Assembly: GCA_026874595.1 (NCBI GenBank)
Contig: CM049313.1
Span: 79,556,659-79,620,658, forward strand
DNA: 64,000 nt
Source of the DNA: Sipunculus nudus
Taxonomy: Eukaryota; Annelida; Sipuncula; Golfingiida; Sipunculidae
Direction: 5' to 3'
The notes under the pieces are model-generated. The model saw only the letters and a program-made list of their open reading frames with translations. It searched no databases and had not been told where the DNA came from. Positions 27,601 through 48,600 of this stretch are shown here, piece after piece. Positions within the stretch are counted from its first letter, which is position 1; every line of letters starts with the position of its first letter. The position numbers and the translations under genes are program-made.

Positions 27601-30600
27601 ATTACACCAATTATGATTTTTTTTGTTTACGAAGCGCACTTCAGCCCACAACATTTCCAAATCTGGATTCTCAAGGTCACTTCGCCTCTTGATCGAAAGG
27701 TGAGATGCTACTAATAGTGCAACTCCACCTCCGATACCAGTTTGCCGATCACGCCTTAGAATGGGTTGGTAGCCTGGTAATTTCAAATAATCAGCCTCGT
27801 ATCCAGGCCTTAAATGTGTCTCACAAAGCATTATTATGTCATATTTAAAGCAAGTGCTATTGATAAATCAACCATTTTGTCTTCAGATAGACTTCTTATG
27901 TTTACTTAACTTAGTGACACCTGATGTTTAACCTGTGGACCCGTGTTTGGGTGTACATCTCCACATAAATTTATTATATAGAGTATATAGGTAATCATTA
28001 GTTCGATGCAATACGTACAACTGTAACAAACCGACAAAAGAATGTCATCCAAGTATATTCACATTTAGCGGATCAGAGCATTTTCTTTTTTGTGTTGGCA
28101 GCCTAACAAAGAAAAACGAACAGTGGTGCATAATTATACAAAACAATAAAAATAAGGACATGACGCTTATTAATGACAGATAGACTGTTCTTTTAGCAAT
28201 TCTATGTCATTAGGAGGCAAAAATGTGCCTTTAATGTGGGCTTTAAGTGCCTCCGACGGAACAGAATGTATATTTTGCCTGGTTCGCTCCTGTTTCTCTC
28301 GGAGATATCGTTCAACCTCATTCCGTATCGGTCCAGAAACTGTACGTACCACTACCTCTAAAAGTGCCTCATCTGTTACCACGTAAGCACGACCCCATTC
28401 TATTTGTCGTAACCAGTCCTTAACAGCTGCATACGAAGATCCGTTACAGTAGGAAGTACGTCCCACTATATCTTTTATGGCATGACGGCGACTTACGACC
28501 TGGAAGCGGTGTTGGCTCTTTTGGCCGTTTCCATATGTGCACGGGTAAAACCTTCTTGGGAAGCTGCGTCACGGTCAAATCACTTGGCCCCGCTGTCCCG
28601 TGCCTTTATGTCACGTAATTATCTCATTTTCGCTTACCAAGCTTGGACCGGTTCACTGGCCGAGCATTGCATAATGCTCACTGGACCTTGTGACGAATGA
28701 ATTGCTGGGGCATAGATATGGCGCTGAGGTCCCAGTATTATTATTTATAGAAGATATAGATAAGATAAAGATAAAGTTGTCTAAGATCTATGGACAGGCA
28801 TGTTGCAACCACTATTGTAATAACGTTCACTATTGTAATAATTATTACAATAGTGGTTGGTAAGGGCAGTTTTTACCAACCACTATTATAATAACGGTCA
28901 CTATTGTAATAATTATTACATTAATGGTTGCAAATGCTACCACTATTGTAATAATTTTTTTTTTACAATAGTGGTAGATGTTGCAGGCGGAAATTTTTCC
29001 CAGATTCGTCGAGATTCTTCCAAACAAATGACATTCAAGAAAATAAAAGCACACAATTCATACTCAGTATCCCCCAAAACGTATCAGATTGTATTTTATA
29101 TGATATACACTAGTGAACTTTATTACATTAATGACCGTGTCGAGAAACCATTATTGTAATAACGGTCACAATTGTAATAAAAAGTACGGCCATCTTTACC
29201 ACTGAAGAAATAATTCTATCGTCGTTCATCTTGAAATGCCACCATTGTTTTAAATTTGGGTTCAAGTCTACAATAATGCAGAATTGTAGTATTCATGACT
29301 TAATAATCCACTCTTACATCATTAATTATAGCAATAACGAAATTTATTACAATAGTAAATGTTATTACAATAGGGACCGTGTCGGGCAACCACTATTGTA
29401 ATAACGGTCACTATTGTAATAAAAAGTAGCGGCCACCTTTATTTCACCACTGAAGAAATAATTCTATCATCGTTCATCTTGAAATGCCACCATTGTTTTA
29501 AAATTGTATTCAAGTCTAAAATGCTGCATAATTGTAGTATTCAAAACTTTATAATCCACTCTTACATCATTAATTATAGCAATAACGAAATTTATAACAA
29601 TAGTGAACGTTATTACAATAGTGACCGTGTCGGGCAACCACTATTGTAATAACGGTCACTATTGTAATAAAATTTAGCGGCTGCTTTTATCTAACCACTG
29701 AAGAAATAATTTTCCTCACTGTTCATCTTGAAATGCCACCATTGATTCATATTTGAGTTCAAGTGTAAAATGGTGAGGAATTATAGTATTCAAACCTTGT
29801 AATTCACTCTTTCGTCATTAATTATACCTTTATCGAAATTTATTACAATAGTGAACGTTATTTCATTAGTGACCGGTTCGAGCAATCACTATTGTAAAAA
29901 CTGTCACTATTGTAATAAAAACTAGCCACCACTTTTATCTCACCACTGAAGAAATAATTCTATCATCGTTCATCTTGAAATGCCACCATTGTTTTAAATT
30001 TGGGTTCAAGTCTACAATAATGCAGAATTGTAGTATTCAAAACTTAATAATCCACTCTTACATCATTAATTATAGCAATAACGAAATTTATTACAATAGT
30101 GAACGTTATTACAATAGTGACCGTGTCGGGCAACCACTATTGTAATAACGGTCACTATTGTAATAAAAAGTAGCGGCCACCTTTATTTCACCACTGAAGA
30201 AATAATTCTATCGTCGTTCATCTTGAAATGCCACCATTGTTTTAAAATTGTATTCAAGTCTAAAATGCTGCATAATTGTAGTATTCAAAACTTTATAATC
30301 CACTCTTACATCATTAATTATAGCAATAACGAAATTTATTACAATAGTGAACGTTATTACAATAGTGACCGTGTCGGGCAACCACTATTGTAATAACGGT
30401 CACTATTGTTATAAAAAGTAGCGGCCACCTTTATTTCACCACTGAAGAAATAATTCTATCGTCGTTCATCTTGAAATGCCACCATTGTTTTAAAATTGTA
30501 TTCAAGTCTAAAATGCTGCATAATTGTAGTATTCAAAACTTTATAATCCACTCTTACATCATTAATTATAGCAATAACGAAATTTATTACAATAGTGAAC

Positions 30601-45600: not shown

Positions 45601-48600
45601 AGTGGATTATAAGGTTTAGAATATTACAATTCTGCAGCATTTTAGACTTGAACACAAATTTTAAACAATGGGGGCATTTCAAGATGAACGACGATAGAAT
45701 TATTTCTTCAGTGGTGAAATAAAGGTGGCCGCTACCTTTTATTACAATAGTGACCGTTATTACAATAGTGGTTTCTCGACACGGTCACTAATGTAATAAA
45801 GTTCACTAGTGTAATAACATATAAAATACAATCTGATGCGTTTTTGGGGATACTGTGTATGAATTGTGTTGTTTTTTTTTTCGGGAATATCATTTGTTCG
45901 GAAGAATCTCGAAGAATCTGGGAAAAATTTCCGCCTGCAACATCAACCACTATTGTAATAAAATATGATAACAATAGTGGTTGCATTGGTAATAATTATT
46001 ACAATAGTGACCGTCATTACAATAGTGGTTGGCAAAAACTGGCCCTTACCAACCACTATTGTAATAATTATTACAATAGTGAACGTTATTACAATAGTGG
46101 TTGCAACACAGGCAGTATATCAGGGTGAACGATCAAAACAAGAGAAAGCCTGTGTCTGAGTTAAAGCTGTCTAAGATCTTTATGAACAGGAAGTATTTCA
46201 GGGTGAACCGTCAAAACAAGATATATCCTGTGTCTAAGATAAAGCTAAGATCTATGGACCGGCAGTATATCAGGACGAACCATCAAAACAAGATATATCC
46301 TTTGTCTAAGATCAACTATCAAATATCTTTTGACAGGCAGTATATCAGGGTGAACCGTCAAAACAAGATAGAGCCTGTGTCTAAGATAAAGCTATCTAAG
46401 ATCTATTGACAGGCAGTTTATCATGGTGAAGCATCAAAACAAGATATATCCTTTGTCTAAGATAAAGCTATGTAAGGTATTTGAACATGCATTTTATCAG
46501 GCTGAACCATCAAACCACAACCGATATATGTACGTGAATAAAATCCGCGTTCGTCAGGTGCGCCACAAGTTTTGTATATAAGTTAACCAAGATCTGTACA
46601 CGTGCAAGAATTAAGGCCGATACGTAAAACCATTCGTCAGATGTGTGTATGGATGTGTTTCACGAAAACGCGATTGTACGCGGTGCCGTCAATTTTGCCT
46701 ACGACAAGGCAATCAAGGATGGACGAGCATGCGCAAAAACAAACTGATACATCCAAATATTTCCAAGAGAAGTGTGATTTTCGCTCAAAAGATAGGCACG
46801 GATGGAAGCTTTATCAAAACGCTTTTAGGTGGCGCCACCTGTCTTGCGTACAAGATAATGTATCCATGATGATGGACATGCAACATTTTAGGCCGATACA
46901 TTAAACTTTTTTTTATACATATTTGCCATCTTCACCATGAACGGGCGCGTGAGTGAATGCTCCGCGGTGAATGATTGTAAGTGGGGCCACCAGTCTTTGT
47001 TAGGCACAAGTTCACATGTGACGCCATGGTGATGCCGAGTTTCAGAAAGATCCATAAGTTCTCCTGAAACGAACGCCGCAGAAGACGAGGCCAAACCAGC
47101 CTAAAAACAGTATCAGCGAAACCTCTTTTCGGCGGATACCTTAAATGTCAGTGAAGTCAATGTTTGCCATATCATGTTTTATTGTAGGACAACGTCTCTC
47201 ATTTCTTGCTATTGGAGATTGGGGGACCGGGAGCGATGCGCAAAGGAATGTGTCGAACGCCATGAACACTTGGGCCAAGACGTTCAGCCCGCAATTCATT
47301 GTGTCGACAGGTGACAATTTTTACCCCGATGGTATTGAAGGCAATCACGACTTCCGCTGGAATCAATATTGGAGAGACATGTACACCGGCGTTAACATCA
47401 GAGCTCTGCAGTGGGAGGTCTCACTCGGTAACCATGACTACAGACCATCCGCTTCAGGTAAAATAGTTGAGAACAAGGGACCCATTGGTCACGGCTCTTA
47501 GCTCAACTTTGTAAAATTTCAGCAAATGCAAAATATACTTATTTCCATTTCTACTGTTCATATTTATATAAGAATTTCAAAGCTAAGAGGAAATGATCCT
47601 GCATATTCTGTGATAATCAAGCAGTAAATATATGAAGTGTCACTACCTGCTTGAAAATACACATACTCATTTTCTCTCTCCACATAATGATGGGAATATG
47701 AAAATAACACTAATAAACAAACGTCCCGTTGAATTTTTGATCGCCATAAACGTTACATAAAAAACGATCATCAATGAAAACCCAAGAAAAAATCAACCAT
47801 GCAAAATCTGGAGCAAATAACGATCAAGACGAACCATATTGTTCAGGGGAATGTTTTTATGATTGGAAGTATGCAGGTGAAACTATGGTTCGATGCTGCT
47901 TTTGCATGGGTTTGCATCATTCCGTTTGTGTAGGAGAAGACCATTCAACACTTGGTATTTGGACTTGTAAAGCGTGCAGAAAGTTTTCACCTATCATCTA
48001 GTCACCTGCTTCTCTTCCTGAGTCTCTAATTGAATTCAATGTCGCCCTTCGAAGCCAGATTAATGCCTACAAGGCGCAACATAATATTCCAACCCTTCTA
48101 ACTAAATGCTGGCAATGCAAAGGTAATAATACAACAGACTATCATACGTCAACGCCGCAAAATGATCCACCTTCAACCCCTTAAATCAAAACAATGGGGA
48201 CACACCAGCACACCCAGTGCTATTCGCGATGATACATCATCGAGTCAAACAAGCGAGGACTCCTCAATAGCTTCCTCCATCATCTCCTTCTGGGTTGAAG
48301 CTCTAGATGGGCCCCTTACCACAGAATCTTCAATAGAACTGCAAAACACAGCCGATGTACACTCAGCAACTTATTAGGTACAAAAAGCTGAGAAGGAATC
48401 AGGGTCCTCAGGTGTACAAGGAAAGGCCGATCTTCTCACATAACTGTCGTGGGGATGCATTTACGTTAGAGCATGCTATTGACAAGATTAAGCAAGTCAA
48501 ATCTGATCATCTTCTCATACACATTGGTATTAGTCATATAAGCAATGAAAATGCAAACACAAGTATTTAAAAAATTTCGCAGGATTGCACCAGTAATCAA

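Follow-up and report, generated by a model that had tools for sequence, protein, structure and literature searches.

The described transposon closest in plan to the element considered here is Tetris, a foldback transposon of Drosophila virilis with tandem units of ~220 bp in long inverted ends. The portions of the Tetris report that we draw upon describe a variable non-coding middle, arrays reaching 66 units and the lack of any known autonomous copy, together with a 37-bp stretch common to end and unit and target-site duplications of 8-10 bp, for which a Mutator affiliation is suggested (PMC4079207). They further quote the view that different transposon lineages came to the foldback plan independently (PMC4079207). 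The subject of this report is a mobile element of ~17.3 kb at positions 28801-46108 of a 64,000-nucleotide stretch of the Sipunculus nudus genome (contig CM049313.1, 79,556,659 to 79,620,658; hereafter the window). It is very probably a non-autonomous foldback-type transposon of a large family, whose satellite unit and terminus have a common origin and whose left satellite array in this copy grew after insertion.

By architecture the element is filed as foldback-type: the kind is a known one, its insertion signature is unusual, and its record of how the satellite grew is unusually clear. It combines long inverted ends containing tandem repeats, a target-site duplication and several genomic copies with a variable middle devoid of coding capacity. 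An earlier reading of the sequence (the first-pass annotation) had concluded that it matches no standard class, but tandem-repeat inverted ends around a non-coding middle are the foldback plan itself, and Tetris is built alike. Compared by description only, and within the excerpted account of Tetris, the two share tandem units in inverted ends, a variable non-coding middle and a stretch common to end and unit (36/37 positions here, as against about 80% in Tetris). They differ in the 6-bp duplication with a G/C centre found here, as opposed to 8-10 bp, and in the TG...CA ends. The 8-10 bp duplication of Mutator is not seen in the present family either, in which it is 5-6 bp in 29/29 copies (4 with one mismatch). 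No foldback transposon with a 6-bp duplication was found among the literature matches listed.

Ends, insertion site and genomic family

The element begins and ends with TGTTGCAACC...GGTTGCAACA, of the TG...CA type, and its left end is an inverse match of the right over 67 nucleotides (nt) with 0 mismatches. Aligned across their first 320 nt the ends are 88.9% identical, with the homology extending into the satellite. The hexamer CAGGCA is present at both 28795-28800 and 46109-46114, longer matches between the flanks fail, and a 6-mer would match by chance at any one site with a probability of 0.0004. Both the fixed ends at 28801/46108 and the 6-bp duplication of the first-pass annotation are thereby confirmed. 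When the flanks are joined via one CAGGCA, a 76-bp minisatellite (46108-46514, forward strand) continues in phase across the junction. The earlier description of this read-through as perfect was too strong, as no more than ~33 bp of its first unit precede the element and the array reaches a regularity of just ~81%. The left terminal domain (28801-29105, forward), supported by the 67-nt match and the alignment, comprises inverted 18-bp modules followed by a module-free stretch, and the single-strand fold of 28801-28990 gives a z of -9.1 against shuffles; the right terminal domain (45818-46108, reverse) is likewise supported by the end match and alignment. A 16-nt module, CACTATTGTAATAACG, yields 171 matches with ≤2 mismatches, all within 28810-46099, where shuffles lead one to expect 0.07; an exact match to the module pair was recovered in neither the viral nor the prokaryote collections.

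Searching the 1.43-Gb assembly (153 contigs) with the first 35 nt at ≤2 mismatches, with the first 100 places listed, recovered at least 184 element ends (94 forward, 90 reverse) and 0 with the reversed control. Both ends were delineated in 29 copies (designated below by L and X numbers), namely the window copy, 14 and 10 further copies, and four miniatures of 64 bp (L033), 93 bp (L032, whose right end has three mismatches), 431 bp (L034) and 39 bp (L073, by eye). An exact 6-bp duplication flanks 22 of these, an exact 5-bp duplication three (L020, L022 and L036/L037), and a 6-bp duplication with one mismatch the remaining four (L024, L054/L055, L034 and L073). For some copies, as well as for L032 and L033, the duplication helped in choosing the right end, and these are not independent evidence; ten pairs chosen by orientation alone gave eight exact 6-bp, one exact 5-bp and one single-mismatch 6-bp duplication. 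Thus, the genome search for ends with 6-bp duplications that the first-pass annotation had proposed as a check bears out, through many sibling copies, its claim of a mobile unit, and the element was mobile in the past. The sizes of L073 and L033 suggest that movement requires no more than the ends.

The duplications differ among copies, which shows that the family does not regularly target minisatellites. The two central bases in 21/21 exact 6-bp duplications (window, 11 and 8 copies and L033) are GC in 14, GG in four and CC in three, and never A/T, while the G+C content of the window is 36%; GACCAC of L032, found later, also has a G/C centre. Certain copies display further peculiarities. The miniature L073, 39 bp counted from its TGTTGCAACC end, is a hairpin-like form possessing both ends and the flanking repeat AAGGAG/AAGCAG (one mismatch). 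Copy X13 possesses two left ends 422 bp apart (bases 201 and 623 of L013), each with AACCTG just before it; AACCTG also stands after the right end. At L068 (G000:C5:72993200-73001900) the element body, minus the outer 134-200 nt on both sides, recurs as a ~7.8-kb macrorepeat: 885 nt compared at an offset of 7816 are 99.1% identical, and up to C5:73017724 the satellite match recurs four times at a spacing of 7.8-8.1 kb.

Kinship of the satellite unit and the terminus

In the 248-bp unit at 38267-38514 the palindrome halves match the terminus, nt 5-41 at 36/37 positions and nt 10-41, reversed, at 32/32. The terminus is present in both orientations, back to back, in every unit type inspected, and the single-strand fold of the unit gives a z of -6.6 against shuffles. 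Since the unit holds two back-to-back terminus copies, a common origin of unit and element end can, on these alignments, be taken as shown; the unit indeed looks like two element ends set back to back, and the satellite units may serve enzyme binding. The opposite order of events, in which a miniature element captured an independent satellite and acquired the shared 37 nt by later exchange, would accord with the existence of the satellite-free miniatures L033 (64 bp), L032 (93 bp) and L073 (39 bp, by eye). It is unlikely given the terminus in both orientations in all unit types inspected and the location of the listed genome matches of the unit, which are mostly near mapped ends (the proportion being uncounted).

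Probable growth of the left array after insertion

Tandem Repeats Finder places 248-bp arrays at 29106-39135 and 44892-45817. The left arm (29106-39130, forward) contains 40 full units and a partial one, with the variant order G-E-A-D-E-E-A-D..., and amounts to 41.9 units with its remnant included, whereas the right arm (44892-45817, reverse) is inverted relative to it and has 3.7 units. The first-pass annotation was right that the same satellite faces inward in both arms; the two arms differ greatly in size, with 41.9 vs 3.7 units, and are separated by a multi-kb non-satellite core. Similarly, satellite forms the body of the element in this copy, but 14 siblings (15 copies compared) have 0-11.5 units per arm; its giant array sets this copy apart.

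Compared with the rest of their own arm, left-arm units reach a median best match of 0.992 (minimum 0.834); compared with the 76 units drawn from other copies, they reach a median of 0.934 (maximum 0.948). In 13/13 other arms with ≥3 full units (12 sibling arms and the right arm of the window copy) the best match elsewhere is higher than that within the arm, though barely so in X15 and L022. As the left-arm units are by median 99.2% alike within the arm and 93.4% to siblings, the left array most likely grew after insertion, which is the simplest reading. An A unit is followed by D in 10/10 cases in the left arm, an arrangement found in 0/20000 shuffles. Parts of the right arm correspond to the left arm at its outer edge (46108-45737 to 28801-29182) as well as at its inner edge (45488-45241 to 38844-39091, 45054-44931 to 39030-39130 and 44992-44880 to 40506-40604). 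It thus seems that the two arms go back to a similar short series, the left having multiplied in the middle. End-to-end identity is 91-98% in most siblings, the 88.9% of this copy being lower, with L027 (87% in a shifted alignment) and L021 (aligning only over 41 nt) as exceptions.

The left 40-unit array might instead have been long already at insertion and carried as cargo. Copies do transpose with arms, sibling units are closer to other copies than to their neighbours, and a sister array could be missed, as the best 39 of 456 genome candidates were scored. Among these 39 there is no unit elsewhere with >95% identity, and the units within the arm are 99.2% alike (median) though the two ends have diverged by 11%, making this history decidedly unlikely. 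An artefact of assembly in a repeat-rich region is extremely improbable: long inverted tandem arrays are difficult to assemble and the left-arm unit number may be wrong, but the arms are no mirror copies (41.9 vs 3.7 units), the junctions have a proper duplication and an empty site, and many other loci show this anatomy as well. Growth after insertion could be pictured as unequal exchange in the left arm, which would have multiplied A-D-E(n) blocks to ~42 units, with the two arms still resembling each other, as they did of old, in their outermost and innermost parts.

The core and the search for a transposase

The region between the arms, 39131-44891, is covered by sibling copies over 4340 of 5761 nt, the gap being 42257-43677. 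It opens with a block of ~280-bp repeats (39131-40289, forward) that interrupts the left arm; it had been taken for a late insertion, an idea given up since X15, L028 and L010 have the block too. This is followed by a satellite remnant of ~1.5 units (40290-40680, forward) and by the core itself, whose first part (40681-42256, no protein domain found) and second part (43678-44891, with ~280-bp repeats) are common to sibling copies. The two are separated by a later nested insertion (42257-43677), missing from the compared siblings and with inverted ends of its own at 42251-42307 and 43626-43680. Across 42251-43680 these ends read TAAAGGCGGTTTCACACCGGATGCGT, and a target duplication belonging to this insertion is not clear. 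The core segment 44262-44718 resembles, at 78% identity, a 326-bp tandem repeat located beyond the element (58640-59359).

The ten window frames compared with Pfam gave no match at all and hence no transposase, nor was a transposase found among 60 frames of ≥80 amino acids from ten copies in the same comparison; weak single matches to SICA_alpha (5.5e-4), ACP53EA (0.011) and Rhabdo_ncap_2 (0.035) were taken as chance. The first-pass annotation's observation of no visible gene therefore extends to the sibling frames examined, and the longer relatives with a coding core that it had proposed to look for did not emerge with a transposase among these copies. Among the matches listed, the middle differs between copies in length and content. 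The centres of L056, L057, L060 and L063 are almost wholly covered by known copies, while the coverage is 2171/2501 nt in L059, 2590/3001 in L061, 2428/4001 in L064 and 503/2501 in L058. That of L065 is covered over 2000/2000 nt, mainly by X17, a match that probably reflects the nested retroelement of X17. Known copies give no coverage of the L062 centre, which from its frames reads as a nested Ty3-like retroelement. The 951-amino-acid frame of X17 was considered as the element's own gene and rejected, since it belongs to a long terminal repeat (LTR)-type retroelement with its own flanking repeat; by reading, the retroelement genes of both X17 and L062 would be nested insertions. Some ends depart from the window sequence, after nt 23 at seven places and after nt 18 at seven. 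The former, read over 1.3 kb each (L032 and L034 longer), have longest frames of 71-180 amino acids, on which no transposase search was made; the latter, read over 0.4 kb each, are too short for a gene test.

A gene-less remnant of a Polinton/Maverick or LTR-type element could explain the 6-bp duplication, the TG...CA ends and the 17 kb length. Polinton ends are AG...TC. The ends here are TG...CA, the integrase, polymerase and capsid genes of Polintons/Mavericks are absent from the frames examined, no such gene occurs in the core of any copy examined, the retroelement genes of X17 and L062 are nested, that of X17 with its own flanking repeat, and the ends are inverted, not direct. We therefore consider this derivation very improbable.

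Several observations weigh against the foldback-family interpretation with growth in place, among them the failure to find an enzyme in the copies examined. The longest core frame, of 138 amino acids, is reached in only 3/200 shuffles; this frame lies within repeated sequence. No partner end was found in the stretch read for L025, L026, L028, L003, L008, L029, L030, L031 and L035, nor within ~0.4 kb each for L069-L072, L074 and L075. The 5-bp duplication of L020, AGTTA, is without a G/C centre. The right-arm segments 45798-45489 and 45302-45055 have their best matches in scattered inner left units, leaving the symmetry incomplete, and growth in place rests on a single assembly of a single individual.

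Possible affinities of the mobilizing enzyme

Several described groups were compared with the family. GingerRoot is described, in the sections of its report drawn upon here, with 6-bp duplications and ends that are mostly TA...TA and occasionally TG...CA, and IS3EU with TA...TA ends (PMC10045372). The present family has the 6-bp duplication and TG...CA ends found in GingerRoot as there described, differs from IS3EU in its ends, and has no GingerRoot-type transposase in any copy examined. A GingerRoot/IS3EU-like enzyme is our best guess, and a tentative one, at somewhat less than even chances. For Ginger1 and Ginger2, the corresponding excerpts give TGTNR ends and duplications that are of the CCGG type with 4 bp or, at AT-rich sites, measure 4-5 bp (PMC2836005); the inverted ends here follow TGTNR, but the duplications are mostly 6 bp and G/C-centred, with 5 bp in 3/29 copies. 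hAT6 is reported, in a partial account, to pair a hAT transposase with a 6-bp duplication (PMC12730594), which fits in length, with no transposase found here. Dada, according to the extract consulted, is without terminal inverted repeats and inserts into small RNA genes (PMC3706591), unlike the present element with its inverted ends and, in the window, a minisatellite site. Non-autonomous Helentrons of oysters carry satellites and spread tandem repeats, as stated in the part of that study at hand (PMC7492417). The present family is similarly non-autonomous and spreads tandem repeats, but differs from them in enzyme class, inverted ends and 6-bp duplications. Helitron-type elements are not known to have inverted ends or 6-bp duplications.

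The first-pass annotation had postulated a DDE integrase acting in trans. Movement in trans is supported by the siblings and a DDE enzyme is plausible, but no enzyme was found in the copies examined. Such an enzyme, encoded elsewhere, would recognise the repeated modules in the ends and insert the element by staggered joining, 6 bp apart, at NNSSNN sites; the present copy landed in a minisatellite. A bolder proposal, which we regard as improbable, is that the enzyme is a DDE transposase not yet described, whose 6-bp target is strictly G/C-centred, that the satellite is kept as a binding platform on which the two end copies per unit gather it, and that the family acts as a factory, time and again seeding fresh satellite arrays and even 7.8-kb macrorepeats such as that of L068.

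Other features of the window

Outside the element, a 12-bp minisatellite, CCATGTATAGTG, occurs at 5246-5489 and 7304-7601, and retroelement remnants with reverse transcriptase, RNase H and endonuclease domains at 3852-4523, 22226-22708 and 26931-27626. Pieces of a host gene, split and metallophosphatase-like, are spread across 47145-61297; of these, 47145-47501 has a Pfam match and the later pieces were recognised by reading. The split gene points to an animal host. Strong strand asymmetry marks 14001-16000 (GC skew -0.44, AT skew -0.42), where a pyrimidine-rich stretch is followed by AT and AG runs.

Conclusions

With the puzzle of an element of no standard class dissolved, the value of this locus lies in the comparison of the window copy with its siblings. 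A single genome offers sibling arms of 0-11.5 units beside one of ~42, for which the small right arm and the arms of the siblings act as internal controls. A foldback plan coupled to a duplication length and ends unlike those of Tetris fits the view, quoted in the portion of the Tetris paper drawn upon (PMC4079207), of independent origins of this plan. The origin of satellite DNA is a standing question, and this copy may record the birth of a satellite inside a transposon.

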